Part shown: piece after piece, positions 28,258 through 36,214 of the stretch | Numbering within the stretch: position 1 is the first letter of the stretch | Layout: the number at the start of each line of letters is the position of its first letter | Source of the DNA: Theionarchaea archaeon | Lineage (GTDB): Archaea; Methanobacteriota_B; Thermococci; Methanofastidiosales; SZ-28-30 | Direction of reading: 5' to 3' | Assembly: GCA_018992685.1 (NCBI GenBank) | Contig: JACVGT010000006.1 | Coordinates: forward strand, 1-42,274 | Length of the DNA stretch: 42,274 bases | Made by a program: the position numbers and the translations under genes | Notes under the pieces: model-generated | Seen by the model: the letters and a program-made list of their open reading frames with translations, nothing else | Databases searched by the model: none | Told to the model about the DNA's origin: nothing

Positions 28258-28866
28258 ATGGTAGTAACCTTCTTCATACAAGGGTTCCTTATCGGTGTTG
28301 CAATCGCGGCTCCAGTTGGCCCTATTGGCCTTCTCTGTATCCAGCGGACTCTTTCTGAAGGATGGATTTCAGGGTTCGTCTCAGGGATGGGAGCTGCCAC
28401 TGCTGACGCCGTGTACGGGTGCATTGCTGGGTTTGGAGTAACAGTCGTCTCATCTTTCTTGGTCAGTCAGCAGATGCTACTGCGATTATTCGGTGGTGCA
28501 TTCATTATTCTCTTGGGTGGCAGGATCTTTGTTTCACCACCTGCAGAAAAGGCAGCTGTTCAAGGAGGGGGGAGTCTCATTACACGCTATGGTTCTACTC
28601 TTGTTTTAACACTCACCAACCCTATGACCATTCTTTCGTTTGCAGCCATTTGTGCGGGAGTGGGGATTTCTACCTATGGGGATGCAGGGCTGTTGGTTCT
28701 GGGGGTTTTCATGGGATCAGCAGTGTGGTGGTTCACGCTAAGTGGGTTGGTTCATCTGGTTCGATCTCGGATTGATCAGAAGAGAATGCAGTGGATAAAC
28801 AGGGCTTCTGGTGCTATTCTGATGGGAATTGGTGTTGTTATCCTTTTCAGCCTGGATGCTTCTTAG
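28258..28866 (+). CDS. LysE/RhtB family exporter
   Basis: About 202 residues, with six hydrophobic segments. The N-terminal block FIQGFLIGVAIAAPVGPIGLLCIQRTLSEG is the LysE family signature, and TLTNPMTILSFAAICAG in the middle is the second conserved block. Members export amino acids or related small solutes across the cytoplasmic membrane; the substrate here is unknown. Start chosen at the ATG 28258, not the TTG two codons earlier, because the promoter predicts a leaderless mRNA. The downstream leader repeat begins 27 bp after the stop. Confidence 0.9.
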   Translation: MVVTFFIQGFLIGVAIAAPVGPIGLLCIQRTLSEGWISGFVSGMGAATADAVYGCIAGFGVTVVSSFLVSQQMLLRLFGGAFIILLGGRIFVSPPAEKAAVQGGGSLITRYGSTLVLTLTNPMTILSFAAICAGVGISTYGDAGLLVLGVFMGSAVWWFTLSGLVHLVRSRIDQKRMQWINRASGAILMGIGVVILFSLDAS

Positions 28867-29051
28867 AATGAGGGGGTAAACTCGGTACTCAGTAGCATGA
28901 AAATGAGAAGATAAACCCTGAAAAGGACGGGATTACAGGGATGAGATACTGTTTCAATGTTTCTGTGAAAAGATTCTCGGGGTACCCAGCGGTACCTTTA
29001 TATGGTAATACTAGGATGAAGGCGCGGGTGAGACCCTTGAGAGATGAAAAG

Positions 29052-29156
29052 ATGCACAAGAAAGGATCAATTGTTGTAGTATTGATCCCATATCTGTTAA
29101 ATTCTTCAAATGAAGACGACGCTGTATCACCCTTGGAGCTGGAATGTTGGAGGTGA
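29052..29156 (+). CDS. Conserved 34-codon leader ORF, copy A
   Basis: Encodes a peptide with a hydrophobic core (SIVVVLIPYLL), then NSSNEDDA and a C-terminal LELECWR. The stop TGA (29154-29156) lies inside the Shine-Dalgarno of the M50 gene. Compared with copy B, three codon changes are silent and three replace residues (His/Tyr, Val/Ile, Trp/Leu), all in frame. Shine-Dalgarno for the ORF itself is weak. It could be a regulatory leader peptide or a tiny membrane peptide; alternatively the conserved object is the RNA. Confidence 0.4.
   Translation: MHKKGSIVVVLIPYLLNSSNEDDAVSPLELECWR
29064..29088 (+). promoter_or_regulatory. Perfect RNA hairpin in leader A
   Basis: GGATCAAT-TGTTGTAGT-ATTGATCC: eight base pairs and a 9-nt loop, unchanged in copy B. 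Downstream, ATCACC (29126-29131) can pair with GGTGAT (29152-29157), which is the Shine-Dalgarno of the M50 gene; a smaller stem TCTTC-AAAT-GAAGA lies between. Confidence 0.55.
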
Positions 29157-29160
29157 TGAT

Positions 29161-30324
29161 ATGCTTGAAACACCCCTTCTGTTGTCCCTTGCGAGCCTTT
29201 CGATGGCTCTAGTCAGCATAGCAATGTCAGTATGGGTCCTGACAAACCGTGAGGCACAACAGACCGAGGAACATCTCATTATGCCTAGAGACTTCATTCC
29301 TTGGTCTGAAATTGACTCAATAGATCTTAGACACAGCAAATCAAAGCCTAGGTGGCTGACTCTGTCTCTCAAAAACAAAGAAGAGAAAAAATACGACTTG
29401 AAGTTCTTCAGAAACCGGTGGGTTCTGGTCAGCTATCTGGACCAGATATCTGGAGAGAAGGGATTCACATTTTTCTCAGACATACCTGTTCCGCGACAAG
29501 AGGAACCGCTCGGTGCCTTGAGAACTGTGGAATACAAGGGGAAGGTGATACCCGATGTCAGTTTCCCCCCACGGATGAAACTAGCAGTATATGGATTCAT
29601 GGCTATTTTTGTGTTGGGATTATCCTATGTTTTCCTTGGAGTGGGGACCACGGCGCTTATTGCCATTGTGCTGATGGTACACGAGGCTGGTCATCTTGTG
29701 GCTTCAAGACTCGTGGGCCTGAAGCTGGCACTTTCGTCGCTCCTCCCGTTCGCAGGTGTGGGGACATGGACAAATCCATTTTCCTCGTCAGAAGCCGAAG
29801 CTGGGGTGGCCCTGGCAGGCCCAGTGGCATGTTTGGCCCTGTATGGAGTTACAGCATTGATCGATCCAGAACGCGGACTCTTCCATGAGGATGCGGTGAG
29901 AGGGTTATACTGGTGGATGGCCCTCCGTGGGCTTCCAATCGTCTTTCTAATAAATGTGGTGGATCTGTTGCCCATCTTCCCTTTGAACGGTGGAAAAATA
30001 CTGAAGGCAGTCCTTCTGAAAACAAGGAGAAATGCACTTGTAGTAACAGTAATTACCATGGTGGTCTGTGCAATCATGGGGATCGGGCAGAGGAGACTCT
30101 TCTTCTTTGCGGCCTTTGGCGTTGGTCTGTTTTGCCTAATGGCTAATAGTGGCATGTATGTCAACTGGAAGCGACTCAATGGGCCAGTGCCCGACAATGA
30201 CCGTCCCCCTTTGTGGAAATCTGCTGTGACTCTCCTGCTCTGGATAGCAGTTGTGGTACTGTACTGGGTAGCCCTCCCTATGCTATCTCGATTTTTGCTG
30301 CACGTGGATTATGGGATTCACTGA
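29161..30324 (+). CDS. M50 site-2-protease-type membrane protein with altered metal site
   Basis: 387 residues from the ATG at 29161, directly after GGAGGTGAT. One N-terminal transmembrane helix (about 5-27) precedes a soluble, possibly PH-like region (about 38-110: IPWSEIDSIDLRHSKSK, RWLTLSLKNKEEKKYDLKFF). Then comes a multi-helix M50 core with His174-Glu175-x2-His178 in MVHEAGHLVASRLVG. The second motif, normally NLLPxxPLDGG, reads DLLPIFPLNGG, so the third zinc ligand is Asn276 (codon aac, one transition from gac). It may be a weakened protease or a metal-dependent chaperone-like protein. Its promoter and leader are duplicated in front of the RHS gene, which suggests the two are co-regulated. 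Confidence 0.88.
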   Translation: MLETPLLLSLASLSMALVSIAMSVWVLTNREAQQTEEHLIMPRDFIPWSEIDSIDLRHSKSKPRWLTLSLKNKEEKKYDLKFFRNRWVLVSYLDQISGEKGFTFFSDIPVPRQEEPLGALRTVEYKGKVIPDVSFPPRMKLAVYGFMAIFVLGLSYVFLGVGTTALIAIVLMVHEAGHLVASRLVGLKLALSSLLPFAGVGTWTNPFSSSEAEAGVALAGPVACLALYGVTALIDPERGLFHEDAVRGLYWWMALRGLPIVFLINVVDLLPIFPLNGGKILKAVLLKTRRNALVVTVITMVVCAIMGIGQRRLFFFAAFGVGLFCLMANSGMYVNWKRLNGPVPDNDRPPLWKSAVTLLLWIAVVVLYWVALPMLSRFLLHVDYGIH

Positions 30325-30373
30325 CAGAAAACTCCATGAAGAGAGAGAGGGCAGATCACTGCAACTTGCCTGT

Positions 30374-30393
30374 CTTCTCTTTTTTTTCTTTTC
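30374..30393 (+). terminator. Oligo-T terminator after the M50 gene
   Basis: CTTCTCTTTTTTTTCTTTTC about 50 nt after the stop. Leader copy B begins two bases later, so the RHS gene is a separate transcription unit. Confidence 0.6.
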
Positions 30394-30555
30394 ATAGTAT
30401 GAAAATGAGAAGAGAAACCCTGAAAAGGACGGGATTATAGGGATGAGATACCACGTATCTACGTTTTTGTGAAAAGATTCTCAAGGGACTCAGCGGTACT
30501 TTTATATGGCAATACTGGTACAAAGGCGTGGGTGATACCCTTGAGAGATGAAAAG

Positions 30556-30660
30556 ATGTACAAGAAAGGATCAATTGTTGTAGTATTGATCCCATATCTG
30601 TTAAATTCTTCAAATGAAGACGACGCTATATCACCGCTGGAGCTGGAATGCTTGAGGTGA
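30556..30660 (+). CDS. Conserved 34-codon leader ORF, copy B
   Basis: Same peptide as copy A with Tyr2, Ile25 and Leu33. It ends in LELECLR and its TGA lies within the RHS Shine-Dalgarno, so translation of the short frame would open the SD-pairing stem and could couple to RHS translation. No similarity to a known RiPP or pheromone precursor is claimed. Confidence 0.4.
   Translation: MYKKGSIVVVLIPYLLNSSNEDDAISPLELECLR
30568..30592 (+). promoter_or_regulatory. Perfect RNA hairpin in leader B
   Basis: Identical to the copy A stem-loop: GGATCAAT-TGTTGTAGT-ATTGATCC. Within the predicted 5' untranslated region of the RHS transcript. Confidence 0.55.
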
Positions 30661-30664
30661 TGAA

Positions 30665-33600
30665 GTGAGAACATTGAAAACAAGTATGCTGGTGGTTGTA
30701 CTGTTTGTAGGATACATTGCCAGCACTCAGGTCATGGGAACTCAAGAGAGCGTCTCTTCAGAGAAGGCACTGGCTAGTCAGGAGGGGCTAGGGAGAGAAA
30801 AAACGAGAGGCAAAGTATTCACTTTTTTGAAGGACATTGACTCCAAAGAACAAAAGCCTTTTTCAAAGAACGCTGGAAACAGGGGATTTTTCTCAGATGA
30901 AACTGAAGAACAAGGATTCTTTTCAGAAGGCAGTGAACCCATTTCTTCACTCTACATTGATCCCCGCCAACCATCAAATCCTACCATCAATCCTTGCACC
31001 AATATGGAGTTTGACTATGAAGCAACGTCGCCCTATTACAAGGCCTTATTCAGGGATGGGACACTTCGAATCTACGTCGCAGGGAACTACATTGAATTTA
31101 GACTGAAAGAGAATTACCTGACAGCAAAAGAAAGCACTCGCATTGCTGAGGAGCCTTCAGTCAAGGAGAACTGTCTCTCAGTTAGTGAAAATACCATATC
31201 CGTCTCCGAGATTTTCGAAGCCATCGATCTCTCCTACAGAGTTGGAAGCTCTCAGATTGAGGAAGCTCTGACTGTCAAACAATTCAGGTCTATCGAGAGG
31301 CTCATATACGAGATTTCCTGGGAAGGACTCACACCAGAGGTTCAGGACGACGGTTCCATCATCTTCTCCGGTGACAAACCGCTCTTGGTGATCCTGCCCC
31401 CCTCCATGACTGACGCTCAGGGAGATGAATGCCGTGATCTTCATTACGAACTGATAGAGACAGAGAACGGGCATGAACTGCACAAGGTTGTGGATGAAAA
31501 AGGGGTGGAGTGGCTACAGCATGCGCACTTTCCTGTGGTACTAGATCCTCTGGTCGAAACCATTGAAGATGCATGGGAATCATCTGGGTTCACACCATAC
31601 GGGAAATACTTCGACAACTTCCAAGAACATGTCAACATTCTGAATGGTCATCTCATCGTATCACAGACGGATCTTGATATTCCAGGAAGAGGTCTGGACC
31701 TTGTGATATCGAGGATATATGAGACACCAGCTGTATTTTATCAGGCAGAGCCCTATGATTATACAGCACCACCTGTGAACGTCGGAATAGGATGGCGACT
31801 GGATTTTCCCTATGTCGGTGAAGAGTACCTCTACTCATGGGGCGGAGGAATATACAAGATTGAATGGTCAGGCGATACGTTCACGAACCATACCGGCAGC
31901 CACTTTGTTCTCGTGAAGAACGCCGACAACACGTACACACTGACAGGGGCAAACGGTACGGTATGTGAATTCGACACTACTGGTAAGATAACACACATGA
32001 GAGATTTGGACCAGAATACTATAACGTTCAATTACACCAGCGGAACTCTTACAAGCATCACTGATACCATCGGACGTACAGCTACTCTCAGCTACTCTGG
32101 CGGGTACTTGTCTGCAATTTCGTACAATGGTACTGTGATTGAATATGGAATCAATGGCTACGGCAACCTGGTTTGGGTGGACGATGTCCTGGACAGGAGA
32201 ACAACCTATAGCTACGACTCGGGGTGGACTGAGTGGTTCTACTATGGGTCAGGATACGCTCTGAAGGAGAATCTCTACCTGCTCACGCAAATAGGCTATC
32301 CCACAGGAGGTTACTCTCAATATGAATACGACAGGTTCTCTTACAATGACCTCTATGGCGGCAGTTCCTGTCTTGACTACTACAAGTACTTCGCGACAGA
32401 TCAACGAGTCTATGAAACGACCCAGGCAAGGCACAACGTGTACTCTTTTTACGGAAACTTCGACATCATCAGCGATTGTGATGTGACAACAAAGGACGAG
32501 TATGACATAACGCAGGGACTGTATGACTTCTCTCTGGATACATCCAGTGGCCTGGTTGTCCAGATGGCTCTTGAGAACGCATCACAGGCAACAATACGGA
32601 AATATGCATTTACATATAGTTCACAGAAACAGCTCAAAGAGGTGGAAGTCTACAACGACGGGGCAACTCTGTCGTACGTCAAATACTATGCCTACGATGA
32701 CTGGGGCAACCTGATATACTCAAAGGATCCAGAAGGGCACGAAGAATTCTTCTCCTATGCACATACGTCCACCTCAGGGTTCTTTGTTAATTACAGTGGA
32801 ACAGTGGTTCAGACCTTCACCAATGCGTTCTCAAATGACCCTGTGCCGGACTCCGTTCACACGGTCTTAATAGGCATGGCAGAGAAACAAGATGGTACCC
32901 ACGTAAGGGAAACCTACTTCGAGTACGATTCTGAGGCTCATCCAACACAGGAAAAGAGTTCCTTTGGAGCCTACACTACCTGGCTGACGGTTTCAGGTAC
33001 CTTCAATGAGAAGACTGGATCAACGAGCTTTCCTGTTGATCTGACAGGTCACACAGTGGTTGGAAATGCAGTCCTACGGATTGCAGGACTGCCTTCTGAC
33101 GATACGTATACAGAGACCCATTCAGTCCAATGTAACACCAACCCCTCTGTTCAATGTACGTGGAACGGTGGATACTGGTTAGGCAAATACTACAGTGTAT
33201 TGTGGATGTTCTGTAGCTTTCCTCTGGATTGTGACAGTGGAAGAGTCTCTATTGGTCCTTTCGTTCATTACCCTGGAACCTTTGGATACCAGAGTTACAC
33301 GACGAATCCAAGCCTAGGAGGAAAATCCAACTCGTTTGCCGTTACGACATACTGGAAAGCATATCCTGCTGAGGTGCAGTATAACCTCGACGGTTCTGAT
33401 TGGACAACGGTAACCACGAATCTGAGGAATTCTGCAGCGCAGGTGGCAGTCCCCATCACAGATGGAACACATACCTTGAACTTCACTGAATCTTCATCGC
33501 TGAAAACAAAATTCTCGTGGACCTTGTACGTCCCCGTGGACACCACTCCTGAAACATACATCACAACCACAGCATATGACGCGTATGGCAATGTAGAGTC

Positions 33601-36214
33601 TGTCACAGACCCTGGAGGACACACAACGACCTTTGGGTATTCGGCTGATTATGGACATGCCTACTTGACGAGTATTACCAATGCGCTTGGACACACAGCA
33701 TCTGCAACGTATGATTCTTCGACAGGAAGGATTCTCTCTTCAACAGATCCAAAGGGGAATACCGTCGCCTTTGAGTATGACCTCATGGGCAGAATAACAA
33801 AACGTATCCATGCAGATCTTTCAGAGGTTGAAGCTGTCTACGACGATTCGAATCTCATTGTTACTATCTTTGATGAACTGGATCACTACACCAAGACGCG
33901 CTACGACAAGATTGGCAGGCTCGTGCAGACTGACTACTACTTGAATGATACGCTCTATGCCACAGAGGTCTTCACGTACAACTACCTGGACAAGCACGTA
34001 TCGTATACAGATCCCCTCCTTCAAACGTACTACAATGAGTATGATTTCCTGGGCAGGACAGTTAAAACCACAAAGCCTGATAGCACGTTCACGACAACGC
34101 AGTACGATGACACCAACAATGTGAAGACGGTTCTTGACGAGAATGAGCACAAGAAGCAGTACAAGTATGACTGGATGGGCAGACTGCTGTGGGTAAGAGA
34201 ATTCATTGATGAAACCACCTACTATCTCACCGAGAGTACCTACAATGAGACAGGAAACATCACATCCATAACGGATGCCAATGGAACCACCACGAGCTGT
34301 GAGTATGACGCTCTTTTCGGCATGACGAGAACTTTATATCCAGACAGCACAACGGAAATCTTTGCCTACGATGTCGTGGGGAATTTCACATCGTATACAG
34401 ATGCCAATGGAAACACCACGAGCTATCAGTACAATGCTGTCTCGCAGCTGATCTCAGTTGAGTTTTCAGACGAATCATCTGTGGAACTTGACTATGATGC
34501 AAACGGTAACCGCACCCTCATGGTGGATCCAGCTGGAACTTCAACGTATGTGTACGACAACAGGAACCGCTTGTGTCAGGAGACGAGGACTATCGACGGA
34601 ATAGCATACACTGTCGGGAGACAATTCGACATAGCCTCTCGCACAGTGGCCACAACGTACCCCGAAGGAACGACCGTCACTTTTGTATACGACGATCTCA
34701 ATCGACTGACTTCCATTTCAGGCTACGCTGACTTCACTTACAACGCGAAATCTCAGGTTGAGAGTGTTGCCTATGCAAATGGTGTTCAACTGAGTATTTC
34801 CTACGGACCGTGCTGCAGCCAGCCGGCACGATTTCTTGCAACGAAGAGCGGAGCCACTCTCCTGGATCTGCTCTACACCTACGATGACGCAGATAATATA
34901 CTGGAAATCGAGAAATACATCTTCAATCCCGAAACACAGGTGCTCGAGGACTCTGTTGATCAATACACGTACGACTGGCTGGATCGAATAGTGACAGCGT
35001 CAGGTGATTTTGGCTCGCTCTCGTACAGCTACGATTCGGTGGGCAACAGGACGTCACTCAATGGAACGCAGTACGTGTACAACTCAATGAGTGAACTTGA
35101 ATCCACCAGTGAAGGGACGAGCTTTGCATATGACCAGAACGGGAATCTGGTCAGCAAGACCAATACTCACGTGTGGACATATCAGTACGATTTCAGCAAC
35201 CGACTTGTGGAGGCTGGCTACGATGGACAGATGATTGGCCAGTATGTGTACGATGGAGACGGAAGGCGTGTCAAGAAGACAGAATGGTCAGAATCGATGC
35301 AGGTATTCCAGAGCAGGATATACGTGTACGAGGGCATCAGCGTTCTGTATGAGAAGAATGTTGACGCAGGAATGGAAGCACTTTATATCTATGGAGCAAC
35401 TGGGCGAATTGCTGAGAAAACGGATGATATGACATTCTATTACCACAACGATTACCTGGGATCACCGAGGATTATCACAGATGAGGATGGCGTTGTAGTT
35501 ACGGGGATAGACTATCTTCCTTTTGGGGAAAGTGAGTTGAAGGGGGAGTCTGAGGACTATCTGTTCACAGGAAAAGAGGAGGATGTGTCTGAGCTGTACT
35601 ATTTTGGTGCACGGTACTATGATCCAACACTTGGGCGGTTCATCAGCAGGGATCCTATTCGAGGAGTAATGAGTGACCCGCGTAGTCTGAATCGGTACAC
35701 ATACGTTCTGAATAACCCTCTGAAATACCGTGATCCTTGGGGAGAGAAACCGGCAGATGAAGAATGCAGTTGTGAGTCAGACGTTGACGAACTTCTAGAC
35801 TTGTTGGCTGCCGCCGAAAATCAAATCAAGGAATTTGAACATGACATTGAGGAGGCAGAGTATCTTCTTGAACAGTATCAGCCACGAGTAGAGTGGTGCG
35901 ATAAAGCGCGTGAAGCCACTAGTTTCAGTATCGTTCAGAGTGTTCCAGAACTTGTTCTGACACTCTTCATATGGTACTACATAGAGGCGCCTTGCTGGAC
36001 ACAGAGAAGTGGAGTAGATAATACGCATCAACGCATAAAAGATCTGGAAAGATCAATTTCAGACCTCAAAGAGGACGCAAATAAATTCAGAGCGGAAATA
36101 AAGAAGAGGTGCTCCTGCGCGCTTCCTGAAGATGATGGGTTAGGGTCTACATCTTCAGATGATGATTCTCCGTTGCCACCAGGAGCAGGTCGTCCCGACA
36201 TTTTTGAGTGCTGA
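30665..36214 (+). CDS. Giant secreted RHS/YD-repeat protein
   Basis: 1849 residues starting at GTG. Signal peptide about 1-25 (KTSMLVVVLFVGYIASTQVMG). Then a beta-rich N-terminal domain ending PVVLDPLVE (about 295-302), a DUF6531-like entry (VNILNGHLIVSQTDLDIPGRGL, about 323-344), and many YD repeats (YDAYGNVESVTDPGGHTT, YDLMGRITKRIH, YDANGNRTLMVDPAG and others) forming the beta shell. The RHS core signature LFTGKEEDVSELYYFGARYYDPTLGRFISRDPI is near 1636-1668, and NPLKYRDPWG marks the end of the cage near 1683-1692. The last roughly 155 residues form the variable C-terminal domain: acidic coiled coil, a hydrophobic helix (VPELVLTLFIWYYIE), a second coiled coil, and a Ser/Asp-rich tail ending in Cys. 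I recognise no toxin fold in it. Likely displayed at the surface or released. Confidence 0.93.
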   Translation: MRTLKTSMLVVVLFVGYIASTQVMGTQESVSSEKALASQEGLGREKTRGKVFTFLKDIDSKEQKPFSKNAGNRGFFSDETEEQGFFSEGSEPISSLYIDPRQPSNPTINPCTNMEFDYEATSPYYKALFRDGTLRIYVAGNYIEFRLKENYLTAKESTRIAEEPSVKENCLSVSENTISVSEIFEAIDLSYRVGSSQIEEALTVKQFRSIERLIYEISWEGLTPEVQDDGSIIFSGDKPLLVILPPSMTDAQGDECRDLHYELIETENGHELHKVVDEKGVEWLQHAHFPVVLDPLVETIEDAWESSGFTPYGKYFDNFQEHVNILNGHLIVSQTDLDIPGRGLDLVISRIYETPAVFYQAEPYDYTAPPVNVGIGWRLDFPYVGEEYLYSWGGGIYKIEWSGDTFTNHTGSHFVLVKNADNTYTLTGANGTVCEFDTTGKITHMRDLDQNTITFNYTSGTLTSITDTIGRTATLSYSGGYLSAISYNGTVIEYGINGYGNLVWVDDVLDRRTTYSYDSGWTEWFYYGSGYALKENLYLLTQIGYPTGGYSQYEYDRFSYNDLYGGSSCLDYYKYFATDQRVYETTQARHNVYSFYGNFDIISDCDVTTKDEYDITQGLYDFSLDTSSGLVVQMALENASQATIRKYAFTYSSQKQLKEVEVYNDGATLSYVKYYAYDDWGNLIYSKDPEGHEEFFSYAHTSTSGFFVNYSGTVVQTFTNAFSNDPVPDSVHTVLIGMAEKQDGTHVRETYFEYDSEAHPTQEKSSFGAYTTWLTVSGTFNEKTGSTSFPVDLTGHTVVGNAVLRIAGLPSDDTYTETHSVQCNTNPSVQCTWNGGYWLGKYYSVLWMFCSFPLDCDSGRVSIGPFVHYPGTFGYQSYTTNPSLGGKSNSFAVTTYWKAYPAEVQYNLDGSDWTTVTTNLRNSAAQVAVPITDGTHTLNFTESSSLKTKFSWTLYVPVDTTPETYITTTAYDAYGNVESVTDPGGHTTTFGYSADYGHAYLTSITNALGHTASATYDSSTGRILSSTDPKGNTVAFEYDLMGRITKRIHADLSEVEAVYDDSNLIVTIFDELDHYTKTRYDKIGRLVQTDYYLNDTLYATEVFTYNYLDKHVSYTDPLLQTYYNEYDFLGRTVKTTKPDSTFTTTQYDDTNNVKTVLDENEHKKQYKYDWMGRLLWVREFIDETTYYLTESTYNETGNITSITDANGTTTSCEYDALFGMTRTLYPDSTTEIFAYDVVGNFTSYTDANGNTTSYQYNAVSQLISVEFSDESSVELDYDANGNRTLMVDPAGTSTYVYDNRNRLCQETRTIDGIAYTVGRQFDIASRTVATTYPEGTTVTFVYDDLNRLTSISGYADFTYNAKSQVESVAYANGVQLSISYGPCCSQPARFLATKSGATLLDLLYTYDDADNILEIEKYIFNPETQVLEDSVDQYTYDWLDRIVTASGDFGSLSYSYDSVGNRTSLNGTQYVYNSMSELESTSEGTSFAYDQNGNLVSKTNTHVWTYQYDFSNRLVEAGYDGQMIGQYVYDGDGRRVKKTEWSESMQVFQSRIYVYEGISVLYEKNVDAGMEALYIYGATGRIAEKTDDMTFYYHNDYLGSPRIITDEDGVVVTGIDYLPFGESELKGESEDYLFTGKEEDVSELYYFGARYYDPTLGRFISRDPIRGVMSDPRSLNRYTYVLNNPLKYRDPWGEKPADEECSCESDVDELLDLLAAAENQIKEFEHDIEEAEYLLEQYQPRVEWCDKAREATSFSIVQSVPELVLTLFIWYYIEAPCWTQRSGVDNTHQRIKDLERSISDLKEDANKFRAEIKKRCSCALPEDDGLGSTSSDDDSPLPPGAGRPDIFEC

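Follow-up and report, generated by a model that had tools for sequence, protein, structure and literature searches.

A promoter-leader segment is duplicated locally in this genome, and its two copies end at the Shine-Dalgarno (SD) sequences of two genes with unrelated coding sequences, one encoding a membrane protein of the M50 family and the other an RHS protein. We give about even chances to the reading that this duplication, by copying a promoter together with a translationally gated leader, has put both genes under one control. The window, i.e., the whole stretch of 42,274 nucleotides analyzed here, is contig 20 of a 3.03-Mb genome in 45 contigs. Within it, BLASTN and alignment delimited two direct repeats, copy 1 at 28893-29159 (267 bp) and copy 2 at 30395-30663 (269 bp), with an offset of 1502-1504 bp from the first to the second. 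Between the copies there are 26 substitutions and a single 2-nt indel (∼90% identity; BLASTN E value of 2.8e-99), and their 3' ends coincide with the SD and start of the following genes:

29161-30324, forward strand: M50-family (site-2-protease-like) membrane protein gene, 387 amino acids from the ATG at 29161, SD GGAGGTGAT
30665-36214, forward strand: RHS/YD-repeat protein gene, 1849 amino acids from the GTG at 30665, SD GAGGTGAT, N-terminal signal-like segment

Similarity stops at the SD and start codons, and the coding sequences of the two genes are unrelated to each other; the similarity running into coding sequence that marks a paralogous gene duplication was thus not found between them. 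This agrees with the original prediction of two direct copies about 1.5 kb apart ending at two unrelated genes, and with its count for the terminal 127 bp (29033-29159 and 30537-30663), in which we found exactly six substitutions and no indel. The 267-bp direct repeats also bracket the M50 gene, and recombination between them would remove that gene and leave the RHS gene with a leader.

The assignment of the two proteins is based on Pfam matches to Peptidase_M50 (30.3 bits; cut-off, 27.2) and RHS_repeat (140.7 bits). The M50 protein has the HExxH zinc motif as HEAGH, and at the expected third zinc ligand it reads PLNGG, with Asn in place of the Asp of the (L/M)DG motif. Since its paralogues in this genome and in the sister genome described below keep the Asp (PLDGG or PMDGG), its activity is uncertain. 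The spacing from GAGG to the start codon is 7 nt in both genes. Between them lies a further element:

30325-30394, forward strand: terminator-like hairpin with a U tract, between the M50 stop codon and copy 2 (z score of -2.1)

A scan for consensus terminators did not list this hairpin. Given its position before copy 2, the M50 and RHS genes look like separate units, and copy 2 is probably the RHS gene's own promoter. Comparison of the RHS protein with viral contigs gave no match, and comparison of the M50 protein with GTDB genome contigs gave no relative. By reading, the C-terminal part of the RHS protein (35700-36214, after the core) contains a hydrophobic segment flanked by two charged stretches that resemble coiled coils, and it has no recognized toxin domain. 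Besides RHS fragments, the genome carries five or more long RHS genes. Two other RHS genes, on contig 18 (L089:7563) and contig 7 (L090:6510), share a different promoter-leader and N terminus and form an ordinary paralogue pair; two radical SAM genes (L089:7975-10764) lie directly upstream of the contig 18 member.

The duplicated unit is private to this genome. BLASTN found just the two copies in the genome itself and no copy in 60 relatives, where three weak matches span just 19-25 bp, and a search of 115 genomes from the phylum with the leader alone also found none. Neither the genome's other RHS genes, of which at least five are long, nor its M50 paralogues are preceded by the unit, and Rfam covariance models gave no match up to an E value of 1 in the region 28500-31000. 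With zero copies in relatives, the pattern is that of a local duplication rather than of a leader family. A search of related genomes had been put forward as a check of the original prediction, and a lack of further copies as what would speak against it. That lack does count against a leader family, but not against a control unit private to this genome and shared by the two genes. Of the transplanted leader originally proposed, then, what stands is a copied unit of a promoter and a leader of ∼130 nt ending at two SDs. A dispersed, MITE-like mobile repeat was considered and rejected, as there are two copies only, none elsewhere, and the ends have no terminal inverted repeats; an inverted repeat joining both ends of the duplicated unit was likewise not found.

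Differences between the copies are unevenly spread along the unit:

28893-28949, forward strand: far-upstream conserved block of copy 1, 3 differences in 57 bp from copy 2
28950-29032, forward strand: diverged core-promoter stretch of copy 1, 17 differences in 83 bp
about 28997-29005, forward strand: TATA-like TTTATATGG of copy 1, assigned by reading, identical in both copies
29033-29123, forward strand: leader core of copy 1, 1 difference in 91 bp
30395-30451, forward strand: far-upstream conserved block of copy 2, from the alignment with copy 1
30452-30536, forward strand: diverged core-promoter stretch of copy 2, with TATA-like TTTATATGG and the 2-nt insertion
30537-30627, forward strand: leader core of copy 2, from the alignment with copy 1

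The remaining 3' part of the leader (29124-29159) has 5 differences in 36 bp. Conservation is lowest in the stretch around the TATA-like box, yet TTTATATGG itself is unchanged. In permutations, a 91-bp run with at most one difference had a P value of 0.003 and 17 differences within an 83-bp window had a P value of 0.008, both for boundaries picked from the same data. Even conservation, which a very recent random duplication would leave and which had been named as a second outcome that would speak against the original prediction, was not what we saw (17/83 in the core promoter versus 1/91 in the leader core), and this unevenness argues against pure recency as its explanation. It had been proposed that conservation lies in the leader and not upstream of the TATA box; the former part is borne out by the leader core, but the far-upstream block is equally conserved (3/57), so conservation is not confined to the leader.

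The duplication is ordinary as an event, and what we find moderately noteworthy about it is its joint at the SD together with a predicted hairpin that faces the SD. This hairpin and a second inverted repeat, within the leader core, occur in both copies:

29125-29158, forward strand: predicted SD-sequestering hairpin of copy 1, ATCACC (29126-29131) against GGTGAT (29152-29157)
30629-30662, forward strand: predicted SD-sequestering hairpin of copy 2, ATCACC at 30630-30635, stronger than that of copy 1
29064-29088, forward strand: perfect 8-bp inverted repeat GGATCAAT N9 ATTGATCC in the leader core of copy 1
30568-30592, forward strand: the same perfect inverted repeat GGATCAAT N9 ATTGATCC in the leader core of copy 2

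The local hairpin had a z score of -4.34 before the RHS gene and -1.40 before the M50 gene, and folding of the whole leader gave -2.6 for copy 2 (RHS) and +0.29 for copy 1 (M50), the latter no better than shuffled sequences. Among 53 SD-bearing genes, the predicted energy needed to open the SD was highest for the RHS gene (9.2 kcal/mol) and seventh highest for the M50 gene (6.6 kcal/mol). ATCACC occurs upstream of the SD in both genes with the duplicated leader versus 0 of 58 other SD-bearing genes, in search regions and with thresholds that were set after the element had been noticed. The pattern ATCACC-N12-32-GAGGTGAT, which by our estimate is expected ∼0.5 times per genome, was found in this genome at the two copies only. 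The arms are identical in the copies, and five of the six leader differences fall beside the arms or in the loop. These two near-identical sequences contain no compensatory pairs, and with two sequences only, the covariance modelling that had been suggested is impossible. Moreover, since the two copies are not independent, each feature counts as one observation.

A candidate upstream open reading frame (uORF) runs through the hairpin in each copy:

29052-29156, forward strand: candidate 34-codon uORF MHKKGSIVVVLIPYLLNSSNEDDAVSPLELECWR, whose TGA stop lies within the M50 SD
30556-30660, forward strand: candidate 34-codon uORF MYKKGSIVVVLIPYLLNSSNEDDAISPLELECLR, before the RHS gene

In both copies the stop is separated from the downstream start by 4 nt, within the distance of ∼10 nt used to recognize uORF coupling (PMC10666635). 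Termination-reinitiation in Haloferax volcanii works at distances that include 4 nt (PMC10666635), and translation of an upstream frame is an established way of freeing an occluded SD (PMC6728339). A uORF at least as long with its stop near the start was present in 9 of 60 control genes (15%) when ATG starts were counted and in 16 of 60 with any start, some of which may be the ends of real genes. Because uORFs as long as the candidate occur in 15% of control genes, we rejected it as a statistical finding. The candidate is without a clear SD of its own, and another possible start is the GTG at 29028 in copy 1 and 30532 in copy 2, which would lie near where the TATA-like box predicts transcription to begin. 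Three of the six substitutions in the uORF are synonymous, against 26% expected (P = 0.18), and a search for homologues of its peptide in 60 relatives gave none that was credible (best E value, 0.145). We also rejected an N-terminal extension of the downstream proteins via the frame MKTTLYH.., which is open into the M50 gene in copy 1 and stops after 13 codons in copy 2; GGAGG and GAGG, placed 7 nt before ATG and GTG, respectively, further favor the starts at 29161 and 30665.

From these features we infer promoter activity, hairpin gating, uORF translation, and co-regulation, as follows. The local duplication would have copied an archaeal promoter with a transcribed leader of ∼130 nt, so that the M50-family gene and the adjoining RHS gene came to be transcribed separately, each from its own copy of this promoter and leader. 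The SD is a natural joint for such an event, since GGAGGTGAT is common to unrelated genes and everything up to the SD is needed for expression; the joint may have arisen by recombination through the short GGAGGTGAT identity or may have been favored by selection. In the transcript, AUCACC is predicted to fold back onto the SD sequence GGUGAU and would thereby hold translation down, and a ribosome translating the uORF, whose stop is inside the SD, would open the hairpin (translational coupling). Shared control is the natural reading of two units whose promoter and leader are the same, and the outcome would be co-expression of the M50 and RHS genes.

The history of the locus can be followed in the sister genome (G001), the only same-genus relative among the genomes compared and, like this one, fragmented. 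There, a syntenic run contains an ABC transporter, a molybdopterin oxidoreductase, a CAAX protease, and LysE. Past LysE, over a 105-bp gap of N, it continues with a promoter and an M48 protease gene in place of M50 and RHS. The duplication appears to postdate the divergence of the two genomes. An M48 ortholog of comparable similarity was not found in the genome studied here. The M48 gene (L110:4284-6007) is preceded by a 28-codon upstream ORF, MGRRKVVLFGYESVRGFSSDFELLEVVF, which has a good SD and whose stop overlaps the M48 start in TTGA. Of 60 SD-bearing upstream regions, the leader of the M48 gene aligned best with copy 1 (global score of -8; next, -13), with a shuffle P value of 0.003; against copy 2 the P value was 0.016 and it was not the best match. 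The peptide of the 28-codon ORF showed no significant similarity to those of the 34-codon uORFs (P = 0.13-0.20). We take homology between the M48 leader and the duplicated leader as a lead only. In its widest form, this lead would describe archaeal leaders with uORF gating as modules that pass from gene to gene and are joined at the SD; the possibly homologous leader would have kept its place after LysE while the gene behind it changes, that of the sister genome encoding a membrane metalloprotease of another family (M48). We consider this very unlikely.

Two further observations concern the same pair of genomes. Three radical SAM/SPASM genes follow the sister's M48 gene on the other strand. 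Separately, a conserved microprotein of 22-24 amino acids (MFMEYTIARTRMEDIQRTYQKK / MNLEYALAKLRIEESHKNAFQKK) with a strong SD, GAGGTGAT-tacaATG, occurs three times in the sister genome (contigs 138, 140, and 77) and twice in the genome studied here (contigs 22 and 3), at loci L128:1629, L131:1629, L129:1627, L132:1619, and L134:1499. Its copies differ by mostly conservative changes, and two of the sister's copies share 242 bp at 95% identity including the promoter.

It is quite possible, if we would not presume it, that the event was a plain, fairly recent segmental duplication whose only regulatory effect was to supply the second gene with a functional promoter; chance or patchy gene conversion would then explain the uneven conservation. 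Such an event fits a unit private to one genome that appears younger than the sister split, the sister's syntenic segment having another gene after LysE, and it fits an unevenness that reaches P values of only 0.003-0.008 with data-chosen boundaries. It accounts less well for a leader core that is nearly unchanged beside a stretch diverged by 20%, for a 3' boundary at the SD in both genes, and for an SD-facing hairpin that is unusual among this genome's genes. An artefact of the assembly or binning of this metagenome-assembled genome is hardly conceivable: the genome is in 45 contigs and its sister is fragmented too, but the copies are 10% different, lie 1.5 kb apart in one contig, and are each joined to a different intact gene, a combination that neither repeat collapse nor a duplicated read path can yield.

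Two other explanations read the conserved core differently. It could be a short gene for a microprotein of 34-42 codons, cotranscribed with and translationally coupled to both genes, in which case it is the protein that would be conserved. In both copies the ORF is open, starts and stops at the same points, and is free of indels; of its six differences, three are synonymous and two more are conservative (H/Y and V/I); and the sister's M48 gene after LysE is also preceded by an ORF, MGRRKVVLFGYESVRGFSSDFELLEVVF, in a leader that is copy 1's best match among the 60 upstream regions. Nevertheless, we think a microprotein unlikely, given a likeness between the peptides that is not significant (P = 0.13-0.20), a DNA match of only P = 0.003 for copy 1 and 0.016 for copy 2, for which it is not the best, the lack of a homologue in 60 relatives, and a synonymous excess that is not significant either. 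Alternatively, the inverted repeat GGATCAAT-N9-ATTGATCC could be a DNA operator for a dimeric repressor, making the duplicated unit a two-gene regulon. Its 8-bp arms are perfect in both copies, and elsewhere in the genome just one imperfect site was found with up to 2 mismatches allowed. However, the repeat is confined to the duplicated unit and so offers no independent site, no regulator gene was identified, and as RNA the arms also make a stem in the predicted leader fold; an operator is therefore decidedly unlikely in our view.

Duplication or transfer of a promoter or 5' leader can rewire a second gene, a process referred to as regulatory rewiring by noncoding DNA. The locus resembles such cases in that a noncoding upstream unit was copied before a gene with an unrelated coding sequence, presumably bringing its control with it; it is unlike rewiring by transfer in being a tandem local archaeal copy with no sign of a source in another genome. 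Literature searches on horizontal transfer of regulatory DNA and on RHS proteins of archaea yielded nothing directly relevant. Tandem paralogues that carry their upstream region along, such as the RHS pair of contigs 7 and 18, likewise have a conserved promoter and leader before two genes, but there the coding sequences are homologous, whereas the M50 and RHS genes are unrelated. With translationally coupled systems in which the SD is sequestered (PMC6728339, PMC10666635), the leader has in common an SD in a predicted hairpin and a uORF that runs through this hairpin and ends 4 nt before the start. In contrast to those systems, the uORF here is a 34-codon candidate for which neither an SD nor a homologue is evident, and its occurrence does not exceed chance.

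The duplicated promoter-leader unit is, at present, one private duplication in one uncultured genome. If the leader does gate translation, the locus would exemplify how copying of an archaeal leader can supply an unrelated gene with a complete means of control. The M50-family protein would then be regulated together with the RHS shell protein, suggesting a putative link between the two.
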